Source: a virus
Direction: 5' to 3' (one strand)
IMG/VR virus record: IMGVR_UViG_3300007540_000013
Location: 1-64,000 of that record
Length of the DNA: 64,000 bases
The translations under genes were made by a program, and so were the position numbers. Positions 8,680-64,000 of this stretch are shown here, piece by piece (position 1 is the first letter of the stretch; every line of letters begins with the position of its first letter). The notes beneath the pieces were generated by a model. It did not search any database and was not told where the DNA came from. It saw only the letters and a list, made by a program, of their open reading frames with translations.

Positions 8680-8681
8680 TA

Positions 8682-11179: not shown

Positions 11180-11181
11180 TT

Positions 11182-11772: not shown

Positions 11773-11779
11773 ATTAAAA

Positions 11780-13614: not shown

Positions 13615-14339
13615 AAGTAGCATTATGCTTACACGGGTTAGTAGGAAGTACTAAAGGTAAGAATGGCGACCTTTTAGGAGGATCGGATGAAGTATTGGAA
13701 CACTCTTTCAGACATAACCAAGAGAATATATTAGGATTAAATGTAGATGTATTCATTCATTCGTGGAGTACTGAATTAAAGGAAGATATCTTAGAAAAGT
13801 ATAATCCTAAGAGATACATTATAGAACCTCAGATTCAATTTAAAGTACCAGATTACATTAAATCTGATCAACACCGCGCCTTCGCGCATCTAAGCAGGTG
13901 GTATAGTTATAGGGAATCAGTAAAATTAAAAGCTGAATATGAACTACAGACCGGAGAAGTGTACGATTATATTCTTGTACAACGATTCGATCTCTGCTGG
14001 AATATTAAACCAGACTTTGCTAATTTTGATTCTAATTTGTTCTATGTAGGACATGCTGGATTAGATAATAAACGAGAATGGTCTGATCGATGGTTTATTT
14101 CAAATTCAACTTCTGCTGATAAGTTCGCAACAATGTATGATAAATTAGCAGAGTATATGGGACCTGGAGGAGAGTTCCCAAGCAGCAAACAGTACGCAGG
14201 TATTTCAAGTCACTTCTTGACTAAGTTTCATGCTAAAAAACTAGGACTTAAAGAAGAGTTTATATATAATTTTGGAGGGTATGGAAGCAAACCGGATGAT
14301 TATAATGAAGTAAGAAGAATGTATTATGGGGACAAGTAA
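13611..14339 (+). CDS. Putative glycosyltransferase, uncharacterised
   Basis: 242 aa. Begins KVALCLHGLVG and contains NVDVFIHSWSTE, VYDYILVQRFDLCW and FSSKQYAGISSHF-like segments. This pattern occurs in polysaccharide-associated transferases of phages and large viruses. Overlaps the previous gene by four bases (ATGA) and the next by fourteen. The family assignment rests on pattern and context only. Confidence 0.6.
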   Translation: MKVALCLHGLVGSTKGKNGDLLGGSDEVLEHSFRHNQENILGLNVDVFIHSWSTELKEDILEKYNPKRYIIEPQIQFKVPDYIKSDQHRAFAHLSRWYSYRESVKLKAEYELQTGEVYDYILVQRFDLCWNIKPDFANFDSNLFYVGHAGLDNKREWSDRWFISNSTSADKFATMYDKLAEYMGPGGEFPSSKQYAGISSHFLTKFHAKKLGLKEEFIYNFGGYGSKPDDYNEVRRMYYGDK

Positions 14340-14679
14340 CTATAACGAAGAAAGACCTTGGGGAACTTTCGAAAATTTATTGGATACAGATTACTGTAAA
14401 GTAAAAGAGATTGTAATTAAACCAGGACAAGCACCTAGTTATCAATATCATTTCAAACGTTCTGAAGTATGGGTAGTAACAAAAGGGACTGGAGAGTTGA
14501 GATTGAACGATGTAACTACTCAAGTTAGTACTGGAAGCATCTTACACATACCAGTTCAGGCAAAACATCAGATTAAGAACACAGGTACAGAAGATCTATA
14601 TTTTATCGAAGTACAACTTGGTGAGTACTTTGGTGAAGATGATATTGTACGATTAGAAGATAACTATGGCAGAGTATAA
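14326..14679 (+). CDS. Cupin, mannose-6-phosphate isomerase type II-like
   Basis: 117 aa. A single cupin barrel: RPWGTFENL at the N-terminus, YQYHFKRSEVWVVTKGTGEL (metal His/Glu), IHIP-type LHIPVQAKHQIKNTG and EVQLGEYFGEDDIVRLEDNYGR. It matches the stand-alone C-terminal domain of the PMI/GMP enzymes that interconvert fructose-6-P and mannose-6-P. It sits directly before a nucleotidyltransferase, the usual partner activity. Confidence 0.85.
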   Translation: MGTSNYNEERPWGTFENLLDTDYCKVKEIVIKPGQAPSYQYHFKRSEVWVVTKGTGELRLNDVTTQVSTGSILHIPVQAKHQIKNTGTEDLYFIEVQLGEYFGEDDIVRLEDNYGRV

Positions 14680-16225
14680 GGTACTACTCACTGCAAGCGG
14701 TTTAGGGAGCCGCCTCGGAAATATTACAGACTACACAAACAAGTCTTTAGTAAGAGTCGGAGCTAAGCCTGCTATTTCTTATATTGTAGAGAGTTACGAT
14801 AAGAGTATTCCTTTTGTAGTTACATTAGGACATTATGGAGAGCATGTGAAGGACTTCTTAGAACTAGCATACCCAGATCGTATCTTTCAATTTGTCAAGG
14901 TAAGTAATTACGTTGGTAAAGGATCTAGCTTAGGACTGTCGATGCTCAAAGCTAAAGAGTTGTTACAGTGTCCATTTATTTTCCACGCTTGCGATACAAT
15001 CACACTAGATGATATCCCAGCACCTACTGTAAACTGGATGGCAGGTAAGTATATACCTCAAAGCTCTCAATATAGAACTCTACAGGTTAGTGGTGAAAAA
15101 GTAGTAAGAGTAAACGAGAAAGGTGAAATACGTTACGACTTAGTTTACGCAGGACTAGCCGGGATATACAGTTATAAAAGTTTCTGGTCCGCTTTAGAAA
15201 ATATCTATGACAGTTCTCCCCTAGACAGCTCTTTATCAGATTGTCACGCTTTGTCAGCTCTTACAGAAGATATAGATGCTGTAAGATTAAGTACCTGGTA
15301 CGATATCGGTAATACAACTTCATTAAAAGAAGTAAGAAGAGAACTAGGATCTAATTTTAAGATACTAGATAAAGTAGATGAAAATATTTTTATTTTTGAT
15401 AACTTTGTTATTAAATTTTTCCATAATAAAAAGATTAATTTAAGTAGAGTTAAAAGAGTTAATTATTTAAATAAAACTACTCCAAACATATTAAGTTATA
15501 GAGATAATTTTTACAAGTATGAATTAGCTAAAGGCGAGCTTCTCTCACACACTTTAACTCCTGCTCGCACAAAAGACTTTCTCGAATATGTTCAATCAAA
15601 ACTATGGAGTACAACTAGTAGAGATAGTGAGTTTCCTTCTGTATGTTATGATTTCTACATTAAAAAATCTCTACAACGTATTGAGAAATATGTAAAAGAT
15701 TTTGGTAGAAAAGAAGATATAACAACTACTATTAACGGCGAAGAAATACCTTCAGCCGAAACTCTTATTCAAAAGTTAGCTAAGAAAGATATTTACTCAA
15801 ATATTAAGACGCACTATCACGGTGATTTTATTTTAGATAATATTATAGATACTCCTGAAGGGTACTCCCTTATAGACTGGAGACAGGATTTTGGTGGTGA
15901 ATTAGAATTTGGGGATGTATATTATGATCTAGCGAAACTTAATCACAACCTTATATTTAATCACGATATAGTAAACAGGGAGCTATACACTGTAGAAGAC
16001 ACCCCACAGGGAGTTAATGTAGATATATTAGTAAGTAAAAGACTGTTGGAATGTCGAGAAGTATTTCGTATCTTTGTAGAAGATAATGGATACGACTATA
16101 ATAAAATTCAAATGCTCACAGGTATGATTTGGATTAATATGGCACCTTTACATGAGTACCCGTTAAACAAGTTTTTGTTTAATTTTGGGAAGTATAATCT
16201 AAAAAGAGCATTGAATGATGAATAA
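14666..16225 (+). CDS. Nucleotidyltransferase-sugar/choline kinase fusion
   Basis: 519 aa with two domains. Residues ~1-230 are an NTP-transferase (LLTASGLGSRLGN near the N-terminus, Lys in TNKSLVRVGAKPAI, HACD-x-I metal site, LSTWYDIGN). Residues ~250-510 are an aminoglycoside/choline-kinase-like fold with HYHGDFILDNII (HxDxxxxN) and LIDWRQDFGGE (metal site). The pairing recalls LicC/LicA-type cytidylyltransferase and kinase activities joined in one chain. It likely activates a sugar or polyol phosphate for the cassette. The substrate is not readable from sequence. Confidence 0.8.
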   Translation: MAEYKVLLTASGLGSRLGNITDYTNKSLVRVGAKPAISYIVESYDKSIPFVVTLGHYGEHVKDFLELAYPDRIFQFVKVSNYVGKGSSLGLSMLKAKELLQCPFIFHACDTITLDDIPAPTVNWMAGKYIPQSSQYRTLQVSGEKVVRVNEKGEIRYDLVYAGLAGIYSYKSFWSALENIYDSSPLDSSLSDCHALSALTEDIDAVRLSTWYDIGNTTSLKEVRRELGSNFKILDKVDENIFIFDNFVIKFFHNKKINLSRVKRVNYLNKTTPNILSYRDNFYKYELAKGELLSHTLTPARTKDFLEYVQSKLWSTTSRDSEFPSVCYDFYIKKSLQRIEKYVKDFGRKEDITTTINGEEIPSAETLIQKLAKKDIYSNIKTHYHGDFILDNIIDTPEGYSLIDWRQDFGGELEFGDVYYDLAKLNHNLIFNHDIVNRELYTVEDTPQGVNVDILVSKRLLECREVFRIFVEDNGYDYNKIQMLTGMIWINMAPLHEYPLNKFLFNFGKYNLKRALNDE

Positions 16226-16757
16226 TACTTTAGCACATGCAATTACAATCCTCTCTGAAGAATTAACTCACGTACTTGAATTCGGTGTATATAGGGGAGC
16301 TACCATCAGGCAACTTCGTAACAGTCTACCTAACGAGTATAAGTTATACGGCTTCGATTCTTTCGAAGGATTACCCGAGCACTGGACAGGAACCGAAACC
16401 ACCCCAGAACAATTTAGCACTGGTGGAGTAATTCCAGATGTACCCGGCGTAACTTTTTACAAAGGCTGGTTTGAGGATACCATACCTGAACACTTAAAAG
16501 TAGTAGAGCCTATTGCCCTTCTGCATGTAGATAGCGATCTATACTCTTCAGCTGTAACTATATTAGAATCTCTAAGAGAGTATATCGTACCCGGAACTGT
16601 AGTTGTTTTTGACGAGTGGTATTACAACCATAGAGATATCGAAGAAAACAGACAGCACGAGCAGAAAGCTTTTTACGAATGGGTAGAGAAGTATAACATT
16701 GAATATGAAATACTACCTCAAATAGAAGATGAAAGACGAATAGTAGTAGTAAAATGA
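16215..16757 (+). CDS. TylF/macrocin O-methyltransferase family
   Basis: 180 aa. SAM-binding VLEFGVYRGATIRQL, then LYGFDSFEGLPEHW, LLHVDSDLYSSA (metal-binding Asp) and VVFDEWYYNHRD. These match the TylF/MycF sugar O-methyltransferase family; the usual length is ~220 aa and this one is slightly short. It could cap or decorate the glycan. Overlaps both neighbours. Confidence 0.85.
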   Translation: MMNNTLAHAITILSEELTHVLEFGVYRGATIRQLRNSLPNEYKLYGFDSFEGLPEHWTGTETTPEQFSTGGVIPDVPGVTFYKGWFEDTIPEHLKVVEPIALLHVDSDLYSSAVTILESLREYIVPGTVVVFDEWYYNHRDIEENRQHEQKAFYEWVEKYNIEYEILPQIEDERRIVVVK

Positions 16758-17725
16758 CACCAAGAGTATTTTTAGGACCGATGACAGTAAACACTGTCGA
16801 AGCTATCAAGCAGTTAAGCTTACCTATAGGGCTTATACCTTCTCGTCGTCAAGTAGAATATGACGGAGGGTATACTGGTTATACTACAAAAGAGCTTTAT
16901 GAATCTATCAACGATTCAGAAGTACTTCTTTGTCGTGATCATGCTGGACCGGGACAAGGTGCTAAAGAAGATGACGGTTATATCTCGTTAGTAGAGGATG
17001 TAAAGTACATGGATGTTATTCATATTGATCCTTGGAAGAAAGTATCAAGTATTGAAGACGGGATAGCTCAAACACTAGAACTAATACACTACTGCTTAAC
17101 TATTAATCCTTTCCAAAGATTCGAAGTAGGTACAGAGCAAGCTATTTACGAATACTCTGCTGAAGATCTAGATCATATTTTAAATAGACTTAAAGTAAAT
17201 TTAGGAGATAATTTCGATAACATCGAATACGCATGTGTTCAATCAGGTACAGGATTGGATCTTCCTGGTAGGAAAAATACTCGTAACTTCGATAGCACAA
17301 AACTCTCCGACTTCATATCAGTATGTAAACGTTACAACGTAAAGAGTAAAGAACATAACGGAGACTATTTAGTTGATAATTTTGGAATAGCTACTAGATT
17401 TAATTTAGGTTTAGATGCGATCAACATAGCTCCTGAATTAGGTCAGTTAGAGACAGAGTACTATCTTTACAAGATTGGATCTAATTTAGATCTATTCAAT
17501 AAGTTCTACGATATATGTTACAATAGTAAGAAGTGGGAGAAATGGATTACTCGCGAGATTAGCAAGCATGAGTTGATACTAACCTGCGGACATTATATTG
17601 TAAACACTCCTGAGTTTAAGCAAGAGATAAAAATAAACTTTCCAGAAGCAGATAAAGATATTCAAAATAATCTCAAACAACTTATAACTAAAATGTATAC
17701 TCAAGCTCATGGATCCAAGACCTAA
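16754..17725 (+). CDS. TIM-barrel aldolase-like protein (GatZ/KbaZ-like)
   Basis: 323 aa. The succession IGLIPSRRQVEYDGG, LCRDHAGPGQG, VIHIDPWKK and FEVGTEQAIYEY parallels the (phospho)aldolase helper family GatZ/KbaZ, where HLD and IGTE motifs line the barrel. I did not find the class II zinc triad clearly, so catalysis is uncertain. In this cassette it could make or break a sugar-phosphate (inference). Confidence 0.55.
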   Translation: MTPRVFLGPMTVNTVEAIKQLSLPIGLIPSRRQVEYDGGYTGYTTKELYESINDSEVLLCRDHAGPGQGAKEDDGYISLVEDVKYMDVIHIDPWKKVSSIEDGIAQTLELIHYCLTINPFQRFEVGTEQAIYEYSAEDLDHILNRLKVNLGDNFDNIEYACVQSGTGLDLPGRKNTRNFDSTKLSDFISVCKRYNVKSKEHNGDYLVDNFGIATRFNLGLDAINIAPELGQLETEYYLYKIGSNLDLFNKFYDICYNSKKWEKWITREISKHELILTCGHYIVNTPEFKQEIKINFPEADKDIQNNLKQLITKMYTQAHGSKT

Positions 17726-18068
17726 GACTTTAATAATAGATATCGACGGAACATTAGTCGAACATAGCAGACCGGACGATGCTGCTAATCCTAATATCAA
17801 GATGGTATTATTAGAGGGGACTATTAAAAAACTACTTGAATGGGAACGTCAAGGACATAGAATACTTCTCTTGACTGGTAGAAAAGAATCGATGAGAAAG
17901 GTAACTGAAGAACAGTTAAGTGAGTTAGGTATCTTCTACGATATGTTGATCATGGGTGTTGGTGGCGGAGGACGTTACCTTATCAACGATAATAAACCAG
18001 ACGGCCGCTTAGCAGCATTCGCAATTAATGTAAAGCGTAACGGCGGTATAAGTAACATTACTTTATGA
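17709..18068 (+). CDS. Small HAD-family phosphatase
   Basis: 119 aa. Motif I IIDIDGTLVE (D-x-D), motif II ILLLTGRKE, and a C-terminal NDNKPDGR segment. It lacks a cap domain, like KdsC/small sugar-phosphate phosphatases. Likely removes phosphate from a sugar precursor of the cassette. Overlaps the preceding gene by 17 bases. Confidence 0.8.
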   Translation: MDPRPKTLIIDIDGTLVEHSRPDDAANPNIKMVLLEGTIKKLLEWERQGHRILLLTGRKESMRKVTEEQLSELGIFYDMLIMGVGGGGRYLINDNKPDGRLAAFAINVKRNGGISNITL

Positions 18069-18856
18069 CAGATGTAGTATTTTGGATCGGAGTAAAGAGT
18101 AAAGATCCTTTATTAAGAGAGAAGCACGGCGATTTTAAGTACTTGGAGTATTCTAAAAAGACTTGGCAGTGGTGGTGTAAGAAGCATGGCGTACATTTTT
18201 TTGAGTATAGTACTCCTTCTTTACCTGATACCGGTACACATAAAGTTACTTGGCAACGCTGGTTTGATGTATTTGATCAACTAGAAGCTGCAAAGATAGA
18301 TTACCGGAAAGTACTTCTGACTGATGGAAGTATCATGGTAAGGTGGGATACTCCAAACTTCTTTGAAATGGTAACAGATGATCTACATGCATTCAGATCT
18401 TTAGAGAACATAAAATGGATTGATCAAGGAATAAAAGGGTACTCAGATTTATTCGATAATTATCCTTTTGATTTAAAAAAGTATATGACATGCGGCTTTC
18501 AGATCTTTACTGCAAAGCATAAACATTTCTTAAAAAGATTAAAGGACTTTTACTTTGATAACTTAGATGAAATTCTTAAATTACAGAAGAGTGTAAGTAG
18601 AGGTACTGACCAACCAGTCTATAATCATTTACTACAGATAGATGGAATAGAAGTTCAACAGACCTTACCTGAGTCTTTCTGGCTTATGCATATGAATAGA
18701 TTTGGATGGTTTGGACATAACTGGCAGTTAAAAGAAGACAATACTCCTTATTTTATAAAATACGGATACATATGGGTCTTCAGTGGATTTGATAGAAAGC
18801 AGCGAGAAAACTTGATGAAGCAGACTTGGGATTTAGTACAGAGTAAATATGAGTAA
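18065..18856 (+). CDS. Glycosyltransferase-like protein, degenerate metal motif
   Basis: 263 aa. It aligns by eye with its downstream neighbour: KVLLTDGSIMVRWDTPNFF here against QVLYVDADTIIHPNAPDIF there; then CGFQIFTAKHKHFL against SGVMVFNKKHKELF; then GTDQPVYNHL against GNDQPVLNYF. The D-x-D of the neighbour is replaced by TDGS, so it may be inactive or use another metal arrangement. Possibly a partner subunit. Confidence 0.65.
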   Translation: MTDVVFWIGVKSKDPLLREKHGDFKYLEYSKKTWQWWCKKHGVHFFEYSTPSLPDTGTHKVTWQRWFDVFDQLEAAKIDYRKVLLTDGSIMVRWDTPNFFEMVTDDLHAFRSLENIKWIDQGIKGYSDLFDNYPFDLKKYMTCGFQIFTAKHKHFLKRLKDFYFDNLDEILKLQKSVSRGTDQPVYNHLLQIDGIEVQQTLPESFWLMHMNRFGWFGHNWQLKEDNTPYFIKYGYIWVFSGFDRKQRENLMKQTWDLVQSKYE

Positions 18857-19589
18857 GAATATTATATTTTTAATTAACATCGTACACGACGATAGGAGTA
18901 AGAATCAAGGGTACGAATGGTCTATAAAGAGCTGGCGTAAGTATGCTGAGAAGTATGGGCATGAGGTCTTTGTACTAGACAAAACTTTATTCGAAGTATC
19001 TTATATGAAACCACAATGGTATAAGATGTACATATTAGACCTCTTAGAAGCGAATGAAGTTGAGTATGATCAGGTATTGTATGTAGATGCAGACACTATA
19101 ATACATCCTAACGCTCCAGATATATTTGACTATACTGAACATAAATTCTGTGCTGTACGAAATTACGGAGATATGGATTGGGTATTAAGGAGTATGGAAA
19201 ATTATTCTAAGTACATCTTCAACAATTTTAACTTTCCTTTTTATAAGTACTTTAACTCTGGAGTGATGGTATTCAATAAAAAACATAAAGAGTTATTTAA
19301 AAGTATTCAAAATTTCTATCATGCTAATAAAGACTCTATTATAAAAATGCAAAGCACATTTGGAGTAGGTAACGACCAGCCAGTCCTAAACTACTTTGTC
19401 AATAGAGATATTCCGGATGACTATAAAGTACTTCCTTATGAATGGAACATGCAAGACATGACAAGACTAGAAGTATTAACCGAAGACTATCTACATACTA
19501 GATACGGATACATTAGTCATTATAACGCTGGCGTTAAGCCAACTCCTGGGTACTGGATAGAGAAGACATACAGACATTTATACTCATGA
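18849..19589 (+). CDS. Glycosyltransferase with DAD motif (GT8-like)
   Basis: 246 aa. GT-A type: YDQVLYVDADTIIHPNAPDIF supplies the D-x-D metal site, followed by KYFNSGVMVFNKKH and GNDQPVLNYF, typical of GT8-like transferases. It overlaps its paralogue by eight bases. Probably cytoplasmic; donor and acceptor unknown. Confidence 0.75.
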   Translation: MSKNIIFLINIVHDDRSKNQGYEWSIKSWRKYAEKYGHEVFVLDKTLFEVSYMKPQWYKMYILDLLEANEVEYDQVLYVDADTIIHPNAPDIFDYTEHKFCAVRNYGDMDWVLRSMENYSKYIFNNFNFPFYKYFNSGVMVFNKKHKELFKSIQNFYHANKDSIIKMQSTFGVGNDQPVLNYFVNRDIPDDYKVLPYEWNMQDMTRLEVLTEDYLHTRYGYISHYNAGVKPTPGYWIEKTYRHLYS

Positions 19590-21073
19590 TAGTATCTCAC
19601 AAGCATAAGTTTATCTTTATTAAGACAAGGAAGACTGCCGGCTCAAGCCTTCAGGTTGCTCTAGCAGAACATTGCGGACCTGATGATATTATCACAGGCC
19701 AGTACAGATTAGGTGTTGACGATAACTCTCATTCAGCAGGACTAAATATGGATAAATTCTGCAGTACTCATCCGCATCCTGAATTAGCACAAGTAAAGTC
19801 ATTTTTAGGAGAAGAAGTTTGGAATAGTTACTTTAAGTTTGCTTTTGTTAGAAATCCTTTTGATATTGCAGTATCAAGGTATCATTGGGACTTAAAAGGA
19901 AAGATGGGCGTACAGGAGACATCTGTAGAAGGTTTCCAAGATTGGGTAAAGAGTGGTAAGTTATTCGATAAAGATAGAGCACATTTATATACTTCTACTA
20001 ACGGGTATGTTGATTTAGATTTTATAGGTTACTACGAAAACTTAGAAGAAGATTTAGATTACATATGTAACGCTATAGGGCTAGATACTCTAAGTCTACC
20101 AAAGCTTAAAAGCGGATACCGCGATAACTCCTCGTATAGTAATTTCTATAACGAAGATACTAAGCAACGCGTAATGCAATTCTATGCAGAAGATTTTAGA
20201 CTGTTTAGGTATAACTTCGAGAATAAAAATATATGTAAGCGTAGAAATATTCTAAGTGTAGGAGATAATTTTATTGAGAATGATAACATAAGTACTCCTT
20301 GTATAATTTATAGAGATAACGAATACAAGATGTACTTTAGTAACCATGAAGGTAGTGTAATAAAACTCGCCACTAGCTCAGCTTTAGAAGGACCTTGGCA
20401 GCAAAAAGGCGCTGTACTTTCCTTACAAGATACTCCTTGTGATACTCATATTGCAAGTCCTGAGGTAGTTGTAAAAGGAGGTAAGTACGTAATGTATTAC
20501 CACGGTGATCAAGATGACACTCAAGGAACTTTTATAGCTGAAAGCTCTAACGGTGTGGACTTTGTTAATACTACATCTAGACCGGTATGTAAATTTTACT
20601 TAAGAGTCTTTGAGTATAAGGGCGTGGAGTACGGTATTGCAAAAGATGGTAATAACGGAGCTATACTTTACAACATAACAGATAATTTTACTCCAATAGC
20701 AAATATACTTCCTAACGCTAGACATTGTCACGCATTAGTTAAAAAGGATAAGCTATATTTAACATATTCAACGATTGGTGATAGTCCGGAACATATTAGA
20801 CTCTGTACATTAGATCTAGGAGATACTTTTGAAGATTGGGAAGTAATCTCAGATGAAGCTTTAATCCTTCCGACTTATAAGCACGAAGGAGGTAACTTAC
20901 CTATCGTAAAAACACAACCAGGTTCATCGACTCGAAGATACGGACGACCAGTAGCTGAGTTAAGAGATCCTTTTATGTTTGAAGTTAACGGAAAAGTTCA
21001 TATATTATATGTTACAAGAGGTGAGAGTAGTATTGCTTACGCTCGCTGTATAAATTATTTTAATGAAGACTAA
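19586..21073 (+). CDS. Sulfotransferase / five-bladed beta-propeller fusion
   Basis: 495 aa. The N-terminal ~215 residues begin KFIFIKTRKTAGSSL, the PAPS 5'-phosphosulfate loop, and have FKFAFVRNPFDIAVSRYHW (3'-phosphate motif). After residue ~230 there are repeated blade elements (TPCIIYRDNEYKMYFS; SPEVVVKGGKYVMYYHG; HCHALVKKDKLYLTYS; LRDPFMFEVNGKVHILYV) like GH43/GH32-type propellers. A sulfotransferase attached to a sugar-binding or hydrolytic propeller is unusual. It suggests sulfation of a glycan recognised by the propeller (inference). Confidence 0.75.
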   Translation: MIVSHKHKFIFIKTRKTAGSSLQVALAEHCGPDDIITGQYRLGVDDNSHSAGLNMDKFCSTHPHPELAQVKSFLGEEVWNSYFKFAFVRNPFDIAVSRYHWDLKGKMGVQETSVEGFQDWVKSGKLFDKDRAHLYTSTNGYVDLDFIGYYENLEEDLDYICNAIGLDTLSLPKLKSGYRDNSSYSNFYNEDTKQRVMQFYAEDFRLFRYNFENKNICKRRNILSVGDNFIENDNISTPCIIYRDNEYKMYFSNHEGSVIKLATSSALEGPWQQKGAVLSLQDTPCDTHIASPEVVVKGGKYVMYYHGDQDDTQGTFIAESSNGVDFVNTTSRPVCKFYLRVFEYKGVEYGIAKDGNNGAILYNITDNFTPIANILPNARHCHALVKKDKLYLTYSTIGDSPEHIRLCTLDLGDTFEDWEVISDEALILPTYKHEGGNLPIVKTQPGSSTRRYGRPVAELRDPFMFEVNGKVHILYVTRGESSIAYARCINYFNED

Positions 21074-22010
21074 ATTTGCAATAGGTTGCTTAGCGCAATG
21101 GTATGAGATTGAGATATTATCTGAGTACATTGATACGTTAATCGCAGCAATAGATAGATACGGAAAAGAGAATGTACATATTGATTTAACTTTATGTACC
21201 AATCAAGAGTTAGAGCGCATTGAAGAAGAGAGTAAGATGTTAGACATCTTACATGACTTCTACATTCAGACAAATAAACTAAAAGGATATAACATACATA
21301 CAGTCATAACAGATAAGTTAATCACGATAGCAGATTACAGACGGACTTTTAACGAAACTTATTGCGATGATGTAGATGTACTGATGTGGGGTGAGACTGA
21401 TCTATTAGTCCCTCAACAAGCTTTTGAAGTACTAGACGGTCTTCATAAAGTAACTCCGACTCCTAAGTATGTCGCTACTTTTGGTATATGTAAGATGTGG
21501 GACGATACCTGGAAACCTTTAGAGCATCCAGACTTTACAGATAAACCTTTTATTGAGAATGATTATGATAATTGGTGGTCTTTAAAGTATACCATGACCG
21601 AAAAAGAGATGAACGCTATCAACTCTAAAACTACACAACCAGAAGTATTAACTTTACCTCGACATAAGTTTAACGGATGTGGTTTAGTAATATCTTCAGA
21701 GGTGATTAGGGCAGGAGTGAACATACCTAAGTCAGTATTCTTCGTACATGAAGATACTGCTTTTATGATAATGACTCAAAAGGTGTTAGGTAATATTCCA
21801 CAGTATGTTATACGTAATATATTAAACGTACACAATAGAAATCATCCTAGTAAGAGGATGTATATAAAAGGTGAAAGCGGCGACACTCTAAATCAAAAAA
21901 GACGAAGTAACGACTGGTATGTAAAAGCGAACAAGTACTCAGAAGAAAATTGTTACAATCTTTTTAATCCTAATTACAAATCAAAGACATGGAAGGACGT
22001 ATGGAGATAG
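21063..22010 (+). CDS. Putative glycosyltransferase (GT-A-like)
   Basis: 315 aa. Begins TKFAIGCLAQWYEIEILSEY; DVDVLMWGETDLLVPQQAFEVL may be the metal-binding segment, followed by NGCGLVISSEV and FVHEDTAFMIM. This order resembles other GT-A enzymes but no family signature is complete. Assigned largely from context in the cassette. Confidence 0.55.
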   Translation: MKTKFAIGCLAQWYEIEILSEYIDTLIAAIDRYGKENVHIDLTLCTNQELERIEEESKMLDILHDFYIQTNKLKGYNIHTVITDKLITIADYRRTFNETYCDDVDVLMWGETDLLVPQQAFEVLDGLHKVTPTPKYVATFGICKMWDDTWKPLEHPDFTDKPFIENDYDNWWSLKYTMTEKEMNAINSKTTQPEVLTLPRHKFNGCGLVISSEVIRAGVNIPKSVFFVHEDTAFMIMTQKVLGNIPQYVIRNILNVHNRNHPSKRMYIKGESGDTLNQKRRSNDWYVKANKYSEENCYNLFNPNYKSKTWKDVWR

Positions 22011-22900
22011 CATTCTTTACAGAGATGGGCTTTAATGGAAAAATTCCTCGTACTCATTCTAATATGAGAACAGAATTTGCTTGGATGGTAGCTTTAGATG
22101 CAGATCATTATAATCTTAATCAGACTCCTACTAAACAGTATGACTTAGGTATAGCTATAAACTCCAAGAATAATCCTGATCATGTTAACGTAGCTCAATA
22201 TAAGACTAAATGTAAGCAAGTAGCAGTAATGCAAGAAGGTCCGTTTTGGTACTTCCAGGACTACCCGCTAGCTAACCAGGTACACTATTTTAATAATCTT
22301 ACCTCAGCAGATATAGTATTAGTTCATAACGAACTTGATGCAAAATATTTTAAAGGATTAACAAATCATCCTGATGTACGGGTGCTTAGGTCCCTAATGA
22401 TTGAAGATCCGATTAAGGAAATAACTTCTATAGAGCAAAGAACCGGAGTGATGATAGGAGGTAATTTCAAGAGCTGGTACGGAGGTTTTGATTCTTTTAT
22501 GCTAGCAAAAAGCGTTACTGATGAAATATATTCTCCACAGATGGGTCGTCGTCAAGAAGGAGAAGAGCAATTAGGTATTCAACAACTACCTTATTTAGAA
22601 TGGAATCAATGGATATCAGAATTAAGTAAGAGGAAGATTGGTATTCATATGATGAGAACTCATGCAGCAGGCACCTTTGCTATGAACTGTGCGTACTTAG
22701 GTATACCTTGTATAGGTTACGAAGGACTAGACACTCAGAGAATATTACATCCCAACCTGACAGTGAAAGACGGAGACTTAGATACAGCAAGAAAATTAAT
22801 TAAGAAGTTGTATAACGACGAAGAATTTCTTATATTATGTAGTCAACAAGCAAGAGAGATGTATTCAAAGTATTATCACGAAAGTAAATTCACCTTATGA
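22001..22900 (+). CDS. Putative glycosyltransferase (GT-B-like)
   Basis: 299 aa from the ATG at 22001; an in-frame ATG at 21989 is four codons upstream. Starts MEIAFFTEMGFNGKIPR, has VAVMQEGPFWYFQDY, then a C-terminal half with KIGIHMMRTHAAGTFAMNCAYLGIPCIGYEG like the donor half of GT-B enzymes. Overlaps the previous gene by ten bases and the next by four. Confidence 0.6.
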   Translation: MEIAFFTEMGFNGKIPRTHSNMRTEFAWMVALDADHYNLNQTPTKQYDLGIAINSKNNPDHVNVAQYKTKCKQVAVMQEGPFWYFQDYPLANQVHYFNNLTSADIVLVHNELDAKYFKGLTNHPDVRVLRSLMIEDPIKEITSIEQRTGVMIGGNFKSWYGGFDSFMLAKSVTDEIYSPQMGRRQEGEEQLGIQQLPYLEWNQWISELSKRKIGIHMMRTHAAGTFAMNCAYLGIPCIGYEGLDTQRILHPNLTVKDGDLDTARKLIKKLYNDEEFLILCSQQAREMYSKYYHESKFTL

Positions 22901-23661
22901 AAATACAGTTTATCGTAGTAGGATGGCATATGAATCAGCCGTCCCTAATAGAAGGATTAGCTACTCTTCAAAAAAACAACCCCAAAACAGTAGATGTGTT
23001 TTGGTCTTGTCATCGTGAACCTACTCAAGAAATTCAAGAAAAATTTAAATGTAAACTTTTTCACAATGGCGGAGAAGAGTGCGGAGCTTACGATCAAGCA
23101 ATCGATTATTTAAATTTATCGGAAGATACTGTATGTTTTTTCTTGCATGATGATATTATAATAAAAGATTGGAATTTTATTAATGTCTGCATTGATTTAC
23201 TAAGCAAAGGAGCGAAAGTAGTAGGGAACTGTTTAGATTACCCTGATAATTTTGATCCGTTTAAGTCCTACGATACAGGTATTACAGAAGAGTTTGATGG
23301 AAAACAGTTTATAGATTACGTTAAACCGGAAAATCGCCACCTGTTCACTGAGCAGCTTTTTATTAAGAAAGTACGTCCATCTTTTATTTGTATGACATAT
23401 CAAAGTGTTGCACAAATAGGCGGATTTGAACCTAGAAAAGAGGCATTAATTCCCCCAACAGTTACTGATGGCAGAGTTCATTACCGTGGTTCAAAAGGAC
23501 TAGGAAAGTACGGTAATCTTTTCCCTGCTCTAGTATGCTATAAAATGAACAAGGTACTAGGCTCAAATAATATAGCCTATTTAAGTAATAGATATCTAGA
23601 TTCTCCCTTTGTATACGAACTAGGAAGAGGTGAATTCGATCCTAATAATCCTATGACATGA
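22897..23661 (+). CDS. Glycosyltransferase family 2-like
   Basis: 254 aa. It starts KIQFIVVGWHM, has EECGAYDQAIDYL and then CFFLHDDIIIKDW, where HDD takes the D-x-D position. QIGGFEPR follows, as in many GT2 enzymes. ATGA start overlap. Part of the cassette. Confidence 0.7.
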   Translation: MKIQFIVVGWHMNQPSLIEGLATLQKNNPKTVDVFWSCHREPTQEIQEKFKCKLFHNGGEECGAYDQAIDYLNLSEDTVCFFLHDDIIIKDWNFINVCIDLLSKGAKVVGNCLDYPDNFDPFKSYDTGITEEFDGKQFIDYVKPENRHLFTEQLFIKKVRPSFICMTYQSVAQIGGFEPRKEALIPPTVTDGRVHYRGSKGLGKYGNLFPALVCYKMNKVLGSNNIAYLSNRYLDSPFVYELGRGEFDPNNPMT

Positions 23662-23867
23662 AAAATTTAAAATCGACAGTAAACGATCAAGGTAAAAAAG
23701 TTACTCAAATTATACACTTTGTAGGTGGTTCAAAGCGTACCTATCATGGGATATTGCCGGAAAGTATAAAGCAAGGTCAATTCACTAAGATGAAATGTGC
23801 TGATGGTACTATGCTTATGATAAATGATGAGAATGTTTTATGTATTGAAATTTTTAAAGAAGATTAA
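23658..23867 (+). CDS. Small hypothetical protein
   Basis: 69 aa, likely a small beta-rich fold (VTQIIHFVGGSKRTYHGIL; MKCADGTMLMINDENVLCIEIF). It sits inside the glycan cassette with a four-base overlap upstream. No family recognised. Confidence 0.6.
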   Translation: MKNLKSTVNDQGKKVTQIIHFVGGSKRTYHGILPESIKQGQFTKMKCADGTMLMINDENVLCIEIFKED

Positions 23868-23868
23868 A

Positions 23869-25026
23869 ATGGAACTAAGAAAAGAAATGCTACCTGTATT
23901 AAGACCTGTAGGGGGTAAGGAAGAAATTGCAGCACTAACCGAAGTTATTGAAAGTGGTTGGTGGGGAAAAGGTCCAAAAGTAGCAGAATTTGAAAAAAAG
24001 TTTGCGGAACTAGTCGGAGCTAAGTACGCAATAGCAGTCACCAGTAACTCTCACGGTCAAGACCTGGTAATGAAAGCCTTAGATATCCGTGACGGAGACG
24101 TCATCAACCCATCTATTTCCTTTATGGCAACTGCAATGATCCCGTTGTGGCAGCCTAACATAACAACCAATGTAGTGGATGTAGACCCGTATACAATGTG
24201 TATTGATCCAGAGGATGTAAAGAGAGCTTTAACTCCGAATACTAAAGCTGTTATTGCTGTTAACCAAGCAGGGGTACCTGCTCCGATCGATAAAATTAGA
24301 GAGTTTTATGATGGGCTAATTATTGAAGATTGCGCCCACAGCTGTTACACCCCCGGTGCTGGAATGCAAGGAGATATTGCAATATGGTCTTTTCAAGCAG
24401 TTAAGACTATGCCTTGTGGAGACGGCGGTATGATCACACTAAACGACAAGGCACTCTACAACAAATTAAAAGAAATGACATGGTTTGGAGTATCCTCAAC
24501 ATATTCTCGTGTAGCAAAGAACGACAAGGACTCTGTTTCTGGAAAACCTGGTTACACCTGGGACTATGAAGTTGATAAGATAGGTTACAAATGTTACATG
24601 ATTGATATCAATGCTGCAATCTGTCTTGAACAAATGAAGAAGCTAGATACAATCTTGGATCATCGCCGTCTTATCCAGAAAGAATATAACTTGAAACTGC
24701 ATTCAATAGTAGAACGTCCTCCCCATACTGAGACAGTACAGTATTACTGCGCAAAAGTACCTATTGGAGATAGAGATGATCTAATCGACTACTTGGCAGA
24801 TAAGAATATACATACTTCTGTACATTTTAAACCTCTACACACATACGAAATTATTAAAAAACACTTAACACATCCGGATAGAGAACTTCCAGTAGCGGAT
24901 CTGGAATGGCAAAAATTAATATCCTTACCGGTACATCCCGGAATGAGTCAAGAAGATATCGATTACGTTGTGTACTGGGTGAATATGTACTTCGATACAA
25001 AGTACGGAATTGCAAAATATATTTGA
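23869..25026 (+). CDS. DegT/DnrJ/EryC1 sugar aminotransferase
   Basis: 385 aa from the ATG at 23869, which lies just after the previous stop; an upstream in-frame ATG would overlap that gene. PLP enzyme: VTSNSHGQDLVMKAL binds cofactor, LIIEDCAHSC holds the Asp/His pair, and WSFQAVKTMPCGDGGMI has the Schiff-base Lys (~177). These enzymes transfer an amino group to 3- or 4-keto nucleotide sugars or related compounds. The epimerase next door could supply the substrate. Confidence 0.9.
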   Translation: MELRKEMLPVLRPVGGKEEIAALTEVIESGWWGKGPKVAEFEKKFAELVGAKYAIAVTSNSHGQDLVMKALDIRDGDVINPSISFMATAMIPLWQPNITTNVVDVDPYTMCIDPEDVKRALTPNTKAVIAVNQAGVPAPIDKIREFYDGLIIEDCAHSCYTPGAGMQGDIAIWSFQAVKTMPCGDGGMITLNDKALYNKLKEMTWFGVSSTYSRVAKNDKDSVSGKPGYTWDYEVDKIGYKCYMIDINAAICLEQMKKLDTILDHRRLIQKEYNLKLHSIVERPPHTETVQYYCAKVPIGDRDDLIDYLADKNIHTSVHFKPLHTYEIIKKHLTHPDRELPVADLEWQKLISLPVHPGMSQEDIDYVVYWVNMYFDTKYGIAKYI

Positions 25027-46088: not shown

Positions 46089-46505
46089 ATGAAAGCATCC
46101 GATTTTAAAAAAATTATTAAAGAAGCAGTAAGAGAAGCTATTAGAGAAGAACTCTCTGAAATGCAGCAACCGGTACAAGAGCAAGTTCAAAAACAGCCGC
46201 TCAAATCTACCGGGAACTCTATCTTAGACGCCCTCAACGAGACTAAAAGTAGTATGACCTCAGAAGACTACAGAAACATTGGAGGAGATTTTAGAGCTGA
46301 TATGGCTCAAAGTTTTAATAAAGCAGCATTCACTCCTAAAGGTAGAGCTGTAAAACCAGCCTCTGATGACCCTAGAGCAGTTAAAGCAGCAGTAGCTTCT
46401 GCACCTAAAATAGGTTTAGACTTATCTCAGTTAGGATTTGTGAATAAAGCAGCCGCTATTGTTAACGAGGTAGATAGAAAACAAAAAGAAAAGTTTAACG
46501 TATAA
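46089..46505 (+). CDS. Hypothetical structural-region protein
   Basis: 138 aa; basic/acidic helix at the start (KASDFKKIIKEAVREAIREEL), a Gln-rich linker, and a helical C-terminus. Similar helix starts are common in marine phages. Upstream of gp25 with a one-base overlap. Unknown. Confidence 0.65.
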   Translation: MKASDFKKIIKEAVREAIREELSEMQQPVQEQVQKQPLKSTGNSILDALNETKSSMTSEDYRNIGGDFRADMAQSFNKAAFTPKGRAVKPASDDPRAVKAAVASAPKIGLDLSQLGFVNKAAAIVNEVDRKQKEKFNV

Positions 46506-59051: not shown

Positions 59052-59830
59052 TATATAAAGGTGCTAATGTTCTGAATGAGCATAAGAAGAAGAAGTTAAT
59101 GTATGATGGTCAATTAGAACAGATTACGTTCTTAGACCGTCGAGTTTACAAAAAGGAAGAAGGAGTTTACTACCCTTCTGTTACTACCGTTTTACAGTAT
59201 ATGCCTAAGAATAAGTTCTTCGATAACTGGTTAAAAGACGTCGGACATAATGCTGATCTTATTATGAGAAAAGCAGCAAACGAAGGTAATGCAGTCCATG
59301 AAGCAGTAGAAGATTTGATTGCAGGTAAAGAGATTACTTGGATGGATGATTTTGGTAATGCAAAATATAACCTTGTAGTATGGAATATGATCTTGAAAGC
59401 AGCAGAGTTTTTCAAGAAGCATAAACCAACTGTAATTGCAGCAGAAGAATTTACATTCTCAGATAAGTTTAAATATGCAGGGACTGCTGATTTAATTGTA
59501 GAGATGGACGGCGAAAGATGGTTACTAGATGTTAAAACTTCGAACAATCTCCACCGTTCCTATGACTTACAGCTAGCAGCATATGCTAAAGCTTGGGAAG
59601 AGATGTTTGGACAGAAGATTGATAGAACCGGTATTTTATGGTTGAAATCCTCTAAGAGATCTGAATCTAAGAAAGAAGGAGTATACCAAGGAAAAGGTTG
59701 GGAGATTAAGCAGATTGATAAGATTGATGAGAACTTTGAACTCTTTAAGACTATCTACAGTCTATATAAGCTCGATAACCCGACTACGGAACCTATTTAT
59801 AATAGTTATCCAACTAAAGTAAAACTATGA
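59048..59830 (+). CDS. PD-(D/E)XK nuclease, RecB-like
   Basis: 260 aa. GTADLIVEMDG (Asp) and WLLDVKTSNN (D-x-K, ~160), followed by YDLQLAAYAKAW, form the RecB-type active site. ATGA overlap with the primase, so it may process replication or recombination intermediates. Second such enzyme in the window (first at 6079); this one lacks the Cys cluster. Confidence 0.85.
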   Translation: MIYKGANVLNEHKKKKLMYDGQLEQITFLDRRVYKKEEGVYYPSVTTVLQYMPKNKFFDNWLKDVGHNADLIMRKAANEGNAVHEAVEDLIAGKEITWMDDFGNAKYNLVVWNMILKAAEFFKKHKPTVIAAEEFTFSDKFKYAGTADLIVEMDGERWLLDVKTSNNLHRSYDLQLAAYAKAWEEMFGQKIDRTGILWLKSSKRSESKKEGVYQGKGWEIKQIDKIDENFELFKTIYSLYKLDNPTTEPIYNSYPTKVKL

Positions 59831-60663
59831 AACTAGCTGAAGCTCTTCTTTACGAAGCTCCTGAAAGCGCAAAAGCCATTATTATGGCCGGCGCTGCTGG
59901 TGCTGGTAAAACGTATCTTGCTAAGTCTGCTGTTATTCCAAACGCTCCCGGATTTAAGTACATGAATCCAGACACTTACATTGAACGTGAACAAGAGCCG
60001 ATGAACCTAACTCAAGCTTCTGCCCAGGTTGATAATAAAGATGTTCCCGCTGCAGTAGACAGCGCTGAAAACTTTATCTGGGATACTACAGCATCTAGTG
60101 CCGCTAAGATGGTAGGCGGGTTGTTCCGTAAGAAACAAGTACCGGGATTACTTAATAATGAGACTTATGATTTCATGATGATAATGGTGTATGCTGACCC
60201 GATGGTATCTTTCTTAAGAAACTTCCAAAGAGAAAGAAGAGTACCTAAGGTAGCAGTTTTATCTACTTGGAATAAAGTTTACGGTAATATTGGAGCATAC
60301 AGTTCAAAATTAGGTAATAACTTTATGATGTATCAAGCACCTGTTCAAGATGCTGAAATCAAAAAAGAAGTAGAAGCTTTCGAAGCTGCTCATAAAGCAG
60401 GTAAGTTAGAAGAGTACTTCACAAACCTACTAGAAAAAGGTGGAGATAAATTCTCATCAAGTTTTAAGAGTGAAGTTCCTGACGAAGAACTATCACCAGA
60501 AGAACTAGAAAAAAGACAGAAGAGTAGAGCTAAAACCCAAGAGCTATTTGAAGCTCAGATTAGAGAGTTAGCTAAACAATTCGGAGCAGTGAAAGGAGAG
60601 GTTGACAAGTATCTAAAATCTGAAGAAGAGATTGCTTCAAGAGTTAAACAGTTTGCAGGGTAA
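59827..60663 (+). CDS. P-loop kinase, zeta-toxin-like
   Basis: 278 aa. IIMAGAAGAGKTYLAKS (P-loop, G22-T29), FKYMNPDTYIE and FIWDTTAS are typical of zeta-toxin-type kinases. The remaining C-terminal half is acidic and helical. In phages, such genes may phosphorylate a sugar-nucleotide or another small molecule. Role here unknown. Confidence 0.75.
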   Translation: MKLAEALLYEAPESAKAIIMAGAAGAGKTYLAKSAVIPNAPGFKYMNPDTYIEREQEPMNLTQASAQVDNKDVPAAVDSAENFIWDTTASSAAKMVGGLFRKKQVPGLLNNETYDFMMIMVYADPMVSFLRNFQRERRVPKVAVLSTWNKVYGNIGAYSSKLGNNFMMYQAPVQDAEIKKEVEAFEAAHKAGKLEEYFTNLLEKGGDKFSSSFKSEVPDEELSPEELEKRQKSRAKTQELFEAQIRELAKQFGAVKGEVDKYLKSEEEIASRVKQFAG

Positions 60664-62837
60664 TGAAAGTAGGAGTAATAGGAGGAGGATTTAAACCACC
60701 ACACAAAGGTCATTACGAGTTAGCAAAACAAGCTTTAGCTCAAGTACCTGATTTAGATAAGATGATTATTTATGTCGGTAAGAACGTTAGAGACGGTATT
60801 GATCAATCTCAATCTGTAGCTATCTGGAATCTATATAAAGATAGCTTAGGTAGCAATGTAGAGATTGTACCTGCTTCAAAAGCACCAATTGGACATATTT
60901 ACTCCTATGCTTCAAATAACCCAGAAGATGAAGTACACTGGTTCTTAGGAGCCAGAGATGAAGAGGATAGAGCTGATATCGCTGATAGAACTTCTTACTT
61001 AGAGAAGAATAGAGAAAAGTATCCTAACTTAAATGTAGAAGTTGTTGAATCAACAGGTACAGATGTAAGCGGTACTGCAGCAAGAAAAGCATTAAGAGCA
61101 GGAGACAAAGAATCGTTCTTTGATTTTATTCCTGATGTAGTAGATAAAGATAAAGTATACGATATTGTGAAGACACCAGAAACTAAAATGGCAGATGCTA
61201 TCGATGAGTTATTTGCTAACTTCATGTATGAAGAACAAGGAGAGGTAGAAGAAATAACAAAAGGATCTCCTGTAGCACCTATTGCAGTACTGCCTTCAGA
61301 ACAAAGACAGAAGCTTCAAAACTATACAAAGATCTTACAAGACGCTCTACCGGATGAATTCGATGTAGAGTATAGACAAGATCATATTAGAGTATCGGTA
61401 CCTTATTTTGATAAAAATAAAAATCATCAAGACGACTGGACTCCTCATCAAACTCAATTACCAGAAGAGGTAGCAGAAGAGACTATCGGGCAATTTAATT
61501 TTGCCCCTTATATTGCTTCAATCTTAGAATACTGTATGACTAAAGGAATGAAAGTTACTCCTATTCCAGAGGTTAAGATTAGACGCGATGAAGAGAACGC
61601 TGCTAACTTATTCGGTAAAACAGGTTACTACCAACCAGATACTCAAGAGATCGTTTTGTATGTAACCGGACGTCATCCTAAGGATGTATTGAGGAGCTTC
61701 TGTCACGAACTTATTCATCACATGCAAAACCTAGAAGGTAGAGCTTTAACTTTCTACACAACTGATGTTCATGCTGATGAAAACCTAAAAGAGATTGAGC
61801 AAGAAGCTCACGCTAAAGGTAGCTTTTTATTTAGAGATTGGGAGAACTCAAACAAAGAACAGGCACCTATTGATGAATCTAATATTGTAGAATCTTTATC
61901 TAGAACACAGAAAGAAGATTTAATAAGACAGGTAATTCGCTTGCAGAGAGATTACGGTGATAATATTGAAAAGATTGCAGCAAGACTAAAACTACCAGCC
62001 AGCCTCAGTAATAAGTTAAGAGCAACCGGAGTAGAGTTCGGTAAAAGATTTGTAGAAGCAGTTTTAGAAGAACAAAAAAAAAGTCTAGAGGAAGGTACTA
62101 AGTACCGTTCTATCGTTGTAGATGTTAGAAAAGCAGTTAACGATGCTTTAAATACTCTTATTAAAGGAGAAAAGCTAGGAGGTTACAACTTACCGGTTAA
62201 GAGAGAGCCTACTGAAGAACATAGAGAATTAGCTAAGCAATACGGGTTTACTCCTCTAGGTCTTATGTTAAACGCTGAATATCAATCTGCATATTTGGGT
62301 ACATTTAAAAGTAAGAGTGAAAAAGGAACACCAACAGAAGTAGGAGTATCGTTAAAGTTTGCCTTATCAGATGAAGTAGAAAAAGGAAAATACCACATAG
62401 ACGGTGAAGCATCAAGTGATGAAGCTGAATTAGACATTATATTAGCATTTAACCCAGAAGACGGGACTAATATGCTACAGCAAATACAGCCTACGTTAAC
62501 CGATCTCATTCGTCACGAGACTGAACATCTAACTCAATCCGGAGAACAGGTTAAGCCTGATAAATGGATGAGAGGTGATCAAGCTAGAAGACAGAAGATC
62601 AGGCAAAACCCAGAATTGTATTATAAGTATTTCTTACTACCTAAAGAAATAGATGCTAACATTCAAGGTTTATATGCTAAGTCTAAATACGAAAAGAATA
62701 GTTTTCAGGATACTGTAGATGCTTACTTAACAGATTTAGTAGGCGATGGGGTTATTACTCAAGCCAACAGTAAGCAGATTTACAATAAATGGAAAACTAG
62801 AGCAGCAGAAATAGGAGGAATCCCAGAGTTAAAATAA
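60663..62837 (+). CDS. Nucleotidyltransferase fused to two zincin-like domains
   Basis: 724 aa. Residues ~1-165: nucleotidyltransferase (GGGFKPPHKGHYELAKQAL with HxGH; VSGTAARKAL as the ISxTxxR-like motif), like NMN or pantetheine adenylyltransferases. Residues ~280-400: FCHELIHHMQNLEG (HExxH, ~348) with downstream EIEQEAHAKG as third-ligand Glu. Helical linker ~415-480. C-terminal: LIRHETEHLTQSG (HExxH, ~618) and LPKEIDANIQGLYAKSKY. Both zincin segments are protease-like; substrates unknown. Three-domain fusions of this kind are unusual. Confidence 0.7.
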   Translation: MKVGVIGGGFKPPHKGHYELAKQALAQVPDLDKMIIYVGKNVRDGIDQSQSVAIWNLYKDSLGSNVEIVPASKAPIGHIYSYASNNPEDEVHWFLGARDEEDRADIADRTSYLEKNREKYPNLNVEVVESTGTDVSGTAARKALRAGDKESFFDFIPDVVDKDKVYDIVKTPETKMADAIDELFANFMYEEQGEVEEITKGSPVAPIAVLPSEQRQKLQNYTKILQDALPDEFDVEYRQDHIRVSVPYFDKNKNHQDDWTPHQTQLPEEVAEETIGQFNFAPYIASILEYCMTKGMKVTPIPEVKIRRDEENAANLFGKTGYYQPDTQEIVLYVTGRHPKDVLRSFCHELIHHMQNLEGRALTFYTTDVHADENLKEIEQEAHAKGSFLFRDWENSNKEQAPIDESNIVESLSRTQKEDLIRQVIRLQRDYGDNIEKIAARLKLPASLSNKLRATGVEFGKRFVEAVLEEQKKSLEEGTKYRSIVVDVRKAVNDALNTLIKGEKLGGYNLPVKREPTEEHRELAKQYGFTPLGLMLNAEYQSAYLGTFKSKSEKGTPTEVGVSLKFALSDEVEKGKYHIDGEASSDEAELDIILAFNPEDGTNMLQQIQPTLTDLIRHETEHLTQSGEQVKPDKWMRGDQARRQKIRQNPELYYKYFLLPKEIDANIQGLYAKSKYEKNSFQDTVDAYLTDLVGDGVITQANSKQIYNKWKTRAAEIGGIPELK

Positions 62838-62838
62838 A

Positions 62839-64000
62839 ATGCAGAAAAGTTTATTAGATTTATTTGAAGTTACTAAAGAGGATATGAATCCTGAATTAAA
62901 GAAGTACCGTCTATATTGCGACATGGACGGAGTACTTTGTGACTTTAAGTATCGTTTCGAATACCTATTTGGTAAAGGTCCTAGAGAGATTGAAGCTGAG
63001 AAAGGAGCACCATACTTCTGGGGAATGATTAGAAGAGTGGGAGCTAAATTCTGGTCAGGTATGCCTTGGACTCCTTCAGGCCGTCAATTATGGTCTGCTA
63101 TCAAAGGATATGAGACTAAACTACTTACTGCACCTCCTCGAGCTTACAGAGACTTCAGTAACTTTGACGAATCAGCAGTTCAAGGAAAAACAGAATGGGC
63201 ACAACGTAACTTAGGGTTAAGTGCTAGTGACGTTTTATTTAAAAGATCAAAAGATAAGCAAGAAATTGCAACTAAGGATATATCAGAAGGATTTATTCCT
63301 ATCTTGATAGATGATAGAATAGATAATATTAACAACTGGAAAGCAGCAGGAGGTATCGGTATACATCATCCGGAGAACACATCTGATATTTCTCCAGTTT
63401 TAGAAAGATTAAGAAAGTTATACAAAGAAGATCCTGCAGACGATACTGAGAAAGAAGTAATTAAAGAGCAGGTAGAGAAAATAAAATTTAAGCAATCTAC
63501 TTTAAACTACAGTACCGTATCTTTAGAACCTTATATTGATAAGGAGACAATGGAAGAGCATTACGGAAGACACTTTAAAGGATATACTGATAAACTCAAC
63601 GCAGAACTAAAAGAGAAAAATATCATCATTGAAGCTGAAGATCAGATTGAAGCTATTCAAAAGATTTTAAGTAAGTACTCTAGTAACGATAAGATTAGAA
63701 ATAACGGCGGCGGATTTTACAACCACGTACTCTACTTTGATAATATGACTCCTACTTACAAAGCACCTTCAGCAAAGTTTAGGAGGTTATTAGAAGAGCA
63801 TTTCGACTCTTTCTCTGAATTCAAACAGCAATTTAAAGACGCTGGATTGAAGCAGTTTGGCTCCGGATGGGTATTCTTAGTAGAAAAAAGAAATAAGTTA
63901 ATTATTGAATCTTACGCTAATCAAGATAATCCTTATTTGGATAATCGATTTAAAGGTACTATCTTATTAGCAATGGATGTATGGGAACACTCATACTATT
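62839..64000 (+). CDS. HAD-like phosphatase fused to Fe/Mn superoxide dismutase (3' partial)
   Basis: 387 codons to the window end, still open. Residues ~24-200: HAD-like domain (LYCDMDGVLCDFKYRF motif I; LLTAPPRAY; ILIDDRIDN motif IV), akin to 5'-nucleotidases. Residues ~229-387: Fe/Mn SOD with LEPYIDKETMEEHYGRHF (metal His ~241), FYNHVLYFDNM (His ~296) and LLAMDVWEHSYY (Asp ~380, His ~384), all four metal ligands present. It would remove superoxide if active; Fe or Mn cannot be told. The fusion with a HAD domain is unexpected. Confidence 0.8.
   Translation, partial: MQKSLLDLFEVTKEDMNPELKKYRLYCDMDGVLCDFKYRFEYLFGKGPREIEAEKGAPYFWGMIRRVGAKFWSGMPWTPSGRQLWSAIKGYETKLLTAPPRAYRDFSNFDESAVQGKTEWAQRNLGLSASDVLFKRSKDKQEIATKDISEGFIPILIDDRIDNINNWKAAGGIGIHHPENTSDISPVLERLRKLYKEDPADDTEKEVIKEQVEKIKFKQSTLNYSTVSLEPYIDKETMEEHYGRHFKGYTDKLNAELKEKNIIIEAEDQIEAIQKILSKYSSNDKIRNNGGGFYNHVLYFDNMTPTYKAPSAKFRRLLEEHFDSFSEFKQQFKDAGLKQFGSGWVFLVEKRNKLIIESYANQDNPYLDNRFKGTILLAMDVWEHSYY

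Follow-up and report, generated by a model that had tools for sequence, protein, structure and literature searches.

A nucleotidase-superoxide dismutase fusion as a candidate capsid-targeted cargo precursor in T4-like phages

Introduction

The 64,000-nucleotide stretch of viral DNA analyzed here, hereafter the window, ends inside an open reading frame (ORF) that joins a HAD-type nucleotidase to a superoxide dismutase (SOD), which raises the question of what a phage does with these two enzymes in a single polypeptide and where in its cycle they would act. A reading of the sequence alone had regarded the ORF as a phage gene of no standard form, suggesting that the SOD could protect replication against oxidative bursts and that the fusion might reflect linked nucleotide salvage. 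On the evidence of sequence comparisons, we propose instead that the HAD-SOD protein is quite probably a capsid-targeted cargo precursor, packaged and cleaved by the head protease.

Two bodies of work frame this proposal. In T4, the prohead protease gp21 cleaves behind L/I-X-E, and packaging of the internal protein IPIII needs no more than its first 10 residues, with positions 4 and 7 acting mainly in targeting and positions 8 and 10 in processing (PMC9026906); the T4 literature further describes Alt as trimmed at both ends and the core proteins as cut to pieces. Polyvalent proteins of phages and conjugative elements, for which an analogy with polyproteins has been drawn, bring together many unrelated domains in one polypeptide, for which packaging and injection are predicted (Iyer et al., 2017; PMC5512222).

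Results

The fusion gene and its two domains

The HAD-SOD ORF is still open at the window end (position 64000), and its last 131 bases lie in the parent viral record (G000; 99,005 b), where all 430 codons read in a single frame (Table 1). Reading past the window end, as the sequence-only reading had advised, yields a complete SOD C-terminus with neither a frameshift nor a loss of metal ligands. The same fusion recurs on a separate contig, L004, in a protein 87% identical to that of the window by tblastn and 86% by alignment, and comparison of the two genes gives a dN/dS of 0.083 over the full protein and of 0.081 over its SOD part. The protein is hence under purifying selection, and the L004 copy and a dN/dS of about 0.08 indicate that the gene is not the product of an assembly join and is not decaying; together with the uninterrupted ORF, they exclude a frameshift, a truncation or an assembly join at this locus. 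The AlphaFold model (mean pLDDT 83.9) comprises two confident domains with a pLDDT mostly about 90, and only segments 1-19 and 198-213, around E10 and E210, fall below 50.

Table 1. Features of the HAD-SOD locus in window coordinates; a slash marks a predicted cut
Feature	Position	Strand	Size or basis
P-loop kinase (AAA_33/zeta-toxin-like), leader MKLAEALLYE/A	59827..60663	+	Upstream neighbor of HAD-SOD
724-aa multidomain protein: nucleotidyltransferase (GGGFKPP, weak Pfam match) and two peptidase-like modules (HELIHH, RHETEHL); upstream	60663..62837	+	
HAD-SOD polyprotein gene	62839..64000, stop codon at 64131 in parent record	+	430 aa
Leader MQKSLLDLFE/, T4-like putative capsid-targeting sequence, predicted cut after residue 10 (L-F-E)	62839..62868	+	Sequence, leader statistics, AF2 segment 1-19, T4 rule
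HAD domain, 5'(3')-deoxyribonucleotidase (NT5C) type, residues about 20-200	62896..63438	+	phrog_2643, motif scan
Predicted prohead-protease site I208-K209-E210/ between HAD and SOD	63460..63468	+	Boundary statistics, AF2 linker 198-213
Fe/Mn superoxide dismutase domain, residues 211-430	63469..64000, on to 64131	+	PF00081, PF02777, PDB 3tjt, active site, fold

The SOD part matches the two SOD Pfam domains in order and above their cut-offs, with Sod_Fe_N at residues 217-304 (E 1.7e-17, 64.1 bits, cut-off 27) and Sod_Fe_C at residues 311-413 (E 4.7e-29, 100.9 bits, cut-off 20.9). Its top PDB match is the SOD of C. difficile (3tjt; E 4.6e-44), and its fold superposes on solved SODs with a target-normalized TM of about 0.87 to 3tjt. 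The four metal ligands noticed at the outset (H241, H296, D380 and H384; residue numbers are those of the alignment shifted by +204) are invariant in 13 of 13 aligned phage SODs and also align with a bacterial SOD, and the second shell (H245, Y249, W344, Q362, E383 and Y387) is likewise invariant across the 13. The residues GGG..NH and ANQDNP suggest an enzyme of the Mn type. By sequence, the SOD is thus complete and apparently intact, and a predicted enzyme. Phages are known to reuse enzyme folds for structural purposes, and a virion location would be plausible for a SOD domain retained as a structural or core filler after loss of its activity. Such a role is nevertheless highly improbable, since all 13 phage SODs, at identities down to 45%, keep the ligands together with the gateway tyrosine and the residues of the dimer bridge, and since dN/dS is as low as reported above.

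That the ORF also encodes a HAD/5'-nucleotidase domain is confirmed by the 5'-3' deoxyribonucleotidase profile phrog_2643, which matches the N-terminal half of the protein (E 1.8e-22). The Pfam NT5C match to the same part is marginal and under the cut-off (E 0.024); the HAD motifs DMDGV, LLTAP and LIDD were found by motif scan, and the motif lysine was read from the sequence only. By family profile and HAD motifs, the domain is a nucleotidase of the NT5C type with a predicted activity.

Phage genome, neighbors and host

The HAD-SOD ORF is flanked by phage genes in a record that encodes an S77 prohead protease (gp21) at 75809-76387 (PF03420, E 6.9e-33) as well as a major head protein of the T4 type (77952-79568; phrog_138, E 4e-76). 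Judging from these genes, the phage is T4-like, and this context, together with the fusion repeated in L004, bears out the initial view of HAD-SOD as a phage gene. The S77 protease gene is present in 6 of the 6 examined records of at least 60 kb carrying SOD or module genes, and was not found in fragments under 33 kb carrying such genes.

Several records labeled as phage and containing a SOD resemble host DNA, which raises the prospect that HAD-SOD is itself a contaminating host gene or an assembly artefact. In one of them (L035; MW462191, "Bacteriophage sp."), an annotated SOD is surrounded by metabolic and regulator genes in DNA that looks bacterial at this place, and host contamination accounts for some of the SOD matches in the phage collection, this record among them and possibly several unannotated isolate records as well. 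At the HAD-SOD locus, the explanation retains virtually no probability, as the ORF has phage genes on either side and shares its record with T4-like head genes, an independent contig has the same fusion, and the 22 distinct phage SODs form, on a long stem, one clade with a support of 100/100; host contamination is ruled out here by gene context, the L004 copy and the tree.

The nearest cellular SODs found belong to the Bacteroidota (best 45-46% identical), and among isolates the closest one found is Flavobacterium phage vB_FspM_immuto (Immutovirus), whose major capsid protein is 73% identical. A Bacteroidota host is therefore likely. The genome of immuto presents a comparable order of primase, exonuclease, a nucleotidyltransferase-type polyprotein (907 aa), a HAD protein with a leader, and head genes from terminase to gp23. 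Its HAD protein has 199 aa and lacks the SOD, and a SOD search of phage records did not find one in the immuto record. Elsewhere in the window, positions 7237-25026 hold a long run of ORFs that include, as judged by eye, glycosyltransferase-like and transaminase-like proteins, and the corresponding part of the immuto genome has an annotated sugar-pathway cluster. The contig begins, at 1-1011, inside an ORF with repeats (NYNPLANTDNGSC and NFNPLANVNDGS) resembling Bacteroidota cell-surface repeat proteins.

Two genes immediately upstream of HAD-SOD belong to the same setting (Table 1). The P-loop kinase, which bears a leader of its own, is a probable co-packaged cargo, and the 724-aa multidomain protein has the same module set as polyproteins in relatives. 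It shows no clear leader, which is also missing from some other long polyproteins of relatives.

Shuffled modules in relatives

A scan of viral contigs returned 30 relatives of the HAD-SOD protein, and a second scan 80 loci of the module or polyprotein kind. Among these, the HAD domain occurs without SOD (contigs L005-L007), and the SOD occurs either as a standalone protein of 207-234 aa (L012-L020 and L021-L033) or inside giant ORFs of 1614, more than 1410, 1014 and 1253 aa (L008-L011). The giant ORFs combine, in variable order, nucleotidyltransferase, SOD, plastocyanin, zeta-toxin-like kinase, GNAT, HAD and peptidase-like modules with several small ones, and SOD has plastocyanin, peptidase-like, nucleotidyltransferase or DPKKGTG modules as neighbors as readily as HAD. 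Plastocyanin (PF00127) lies beside SOD in the polyproteins at L009:1431-5660 and L011:2558-6319, which suggests a cargo set of redox proteins. Small recurrent modules (DPKKGTGKKP...RRLYTDENP; GDTYEKMAAKGK...; YRAIEKRGKKFYYIQDDPLGAGIRQEFGPFKT) are shuffled between enzymes, with L/I-X-E at their flanks, in L008, L010, L011, L080 and L089.

This pattern bears directly on the reading of HAD-SOD as a bifunctional nucleotidase-SOD of the cytoplasm, which would protect replication and recycle nucleotides with no part for packaging. Both domains do appear intact and evolve under purifying selection, and the SODs of other phage lineages are simple standalone genes. The pair is, however, unstable, as HAD and SOD are found alone or with other partners (L008-L011); a 10-residue leader is kept by the standalone SODs; and the motif of the capsid protease is present at the leader and at the joint and strongly enriched across the family. 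A cytoplasmic enzyme is hence unlikely. Since HAD and SOD separate and reshuffle in relatives, the linked nucleotide salvage initially suggested by the fusion is likewise disfavored, all the more so with a protease motif at the joint.

Protease motifs at leaders and module boundaries

The joint between the domains reads EVIKE/QVEKIKF in the window protein and EVLKE/QVKKIKF in L004, and the protein starts with a leader that lacks the exact residue spacing of T4, a spacing present in many relatives. As the motif is short and common, any single [LI]xE site is only probable; its distribution was assessed over the family. Of 126 dereplicated relatives whose start is defined, 98 (78%) have a leader, taken as [LI]xE with its E at residues 8-20, as compared with 10-11% of interior windows (maximum 17% in 500 draws). 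Leaders are commoner in short ORFs (62 of 69) than in long polyproteins, and in 37 of the 69 short ORFs the first [LI]xE site falls exactly at residue 10. The complete T4 leader spacing occurs in 43 of the 126 relatives, against a null mean of 0.09 and a maximum of 2. The standalone SODs have leaders of 9-10 residues, such as MIKLLDLLTE/A and MKIKDILFE/Q.

Under a simple greedy rule for calling ORFs, such leaders are enriched in the head region of the parent record (14 of 21 genes, vs. 16 of 86 elsewhere; Fisher p 4e-5), where some genes do without one. Repeated leaders of the form IIKEVLAE or LREYIIEVLAE mark small ORFs at 46089-46505, 66142-68300 and 74461-74700 of the parent record, which are probably further core or cargo proteins.

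The same motif marks the borders of internal modules. In 51 long polyproteins, with module boundaries set by local alignments and 2000 circular shifts as the null, 142 of 212 module starts lie near an [LI]xE site, where 50 are expected (maximum 75 in 2000 shifts; z=15), as do 145 of 231 module ends (55 expected), although these statistics, like those of the leaders, overstate independence because the sequences in them are related. Control motifs show no excess at boundaries, be it the reversed ExL (68 vs. 67 expected), other residues followed by xE (163 vs. 161) or [LI]xD (23 vs. 66), and VxE shows a smaller one (46 vs. 21). These controls rule out E-rich linkers as the source of the signal, and the specificity of the motif is hard to explain otherwise, despite the kinship of the sequences. 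Furthermore, all 5 of the 5 polyprotein-internal SODs have an [LI]xE site both before and after the domain, and C-terminal SODs have none behind it.

These distributions also weigh on the idea of a polyvalent protein that is packaged uncut and injected whole, with its L/I-X-E sites as incidental linkers. Multidomain polyvalent proteins that are injected with the DNA have been described, and the virion RNA polymerase of N4 is packaged without processing (PMC5512222), but incidental linkers do not readily account for an enrichment at module boundaries that is confined to [LI]xE among the tested alternatives ExL, [LI]xD and other xE motifs, nor for a downstream site that appears only where something follows the SOD. 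Uncut delivery is accordingly rated as very unlikely.

Discussion

The anatomy observed at this locus comprises two complete domains, T4-like head genes, a motif at both leader and joint and its enrichment across the family; packaging and cleavage of the protein we infer from T4, and we further infer its ejection, the activity and metal of its SOD, and a benefit of the cargo. In the cargo-precursor model, the leader would dock HAD-SOD in the prohead core, and once the shell has closed the gp21-like S77 protease would cut behind LFE (residue 10) and IKE (residue 210), freeing a HAD nucleotidase and a MnSOD inside the capsid. Because the joint carries the prohead-protease motif IKE/Q, HAD and SOD are probably separated in the virion; both would then stay in the head with the DNA and be ejected into the next cell. 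The SOD could remove superoxide at the start of infection, or guard the packaged genome in the particle beforehand, and the HAD domain might trim deoxyribonucleotides or another phosphate ester. The protective role first proposed for the SOD is therefore retained in part: superoxide defense is its natural chemistry, but replication fits less well as the target than DNA entry or the particle, since the gene looks late and its product packaged.

The closest parallel for this scheme lies in the T4 internal proteins IPI, IPII and IPIII and in Alt, with which the phage shares head genes of the T4 type, an S77 protease and the L/I-X-E cut motif. The leaders of many relatives resemble those of T4 internal proteins in their length of about 10 residues, with hydrophobic positions 4 and 7, L/I at position 8 and E at position 10. 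The difference resides in the cargo, predicted here to be a Mn-type SOD and other enzymes joined in polyproteins with internal sites; the T4 papers searched, PMC9026906 included, contain no account of a cargo of several enzymes that is released as individual domains. Polyvalent proteins offer a second parallel, as they contain kinase, GNAT, nucleotidyltransferase and peptidase domains (PMC5512222); the window protein has two domains and its relatives more. Release, however, is assigned in polyvalent proteins to embedded peptidases (PMC5512222), whereas the sites reported here match the capsid maturation protease. Pfam and PHROG profile searches detected no peptidase domain in the HAD-SOD protein, which is hence no strict member of that class; peptidase-like HExxH modules are present in some of its relatives. 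A term search of the main text of PMC5512222 found no superoxide dismutase and a single "prohead," in a reference title.

As regards the SOD itself, fold, ligands and Mn-type residues are those of the Bacteroidota Mn SODs of the Sod_Fe_N/Sod_Fe_C family, from which the phage SODs differ as a separate, long-branched clade with leaders, many of its members being polyprotein modules. The suggested search of phage records for the domain pair returned SODs of the Pseudomonas PA5oct/MIJ3 group and of Vibrio phage 2.275, and not the HAD-SOD pair. These SODs share the Fe/Mn SOD fold family and the four aligned ligands, but they are about 24% identical, shorter, standalone and set in other genome contexts. 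Databases also hold SODs of uncultured phages, including a 501-aa SOD protein. The absence of a standard phage gene of this form therefore holds for the HAD-SOD pair in the phage records searched, but not for SODs alone. The divergent, PA5oct-type SOD of MIJ3 (L199:1435-1983) also has a short leader with I-A-E at its start (MNDSIKKYISIAEA). In MIJ3, only four virion proteins have been identified, and the SOD is not among them.

T4 internal proteins, polyvalent proteins and the SODs of other phage lineages are already known, and what appears to be new is the use proposed here of a SOD as cargo, freed at repeated sites by the capsid protease. No description of such a phage SOD or of cargo polyproteins cut by a prohead protease was found in the open-access literature searched, an absence that counts as weak evidence, and the search likewise found no virion proteome of these phages or of immuto, the study of Baltic Flavobacterium phages (PMC7077304) having none.

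Beyond the single locus, the family-wide pattern leads to a broader proposal, held with somewhat less assurance yet judged the likelier outcome: that in a large group of T4-like aquatic phages the capsid maturation protease doubles as a polyprotein protease. In these phages, shuffled enzyme cassettes (SOD, plastocyanin, kinases, nucleotidases and nucleotidyltransferases) would be synthesized as a single capsid-targeted polypeptide, loaded into the prohead, cleaved into separate enzymes at L/I-X-E and carried along with the genome, which would bring an antioxidant enzyme into the cell ahead of any phage gene expression. If this is true, ready-made redox enzymes enter the cell with the phage DNA, and the virus controls the early oxidative state of the cell. 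The arrangement would also constitute a bacteriophage counterpart of the polyproteins of animal viruses, with the capsid protease freeing a multi-enzyme cargo. The L/I-X-E rule would allow head cargo to be predicted from sequence in unannotated marine phages, and it would offer a natural, modular means of loading T4-like capsids with enzymes.
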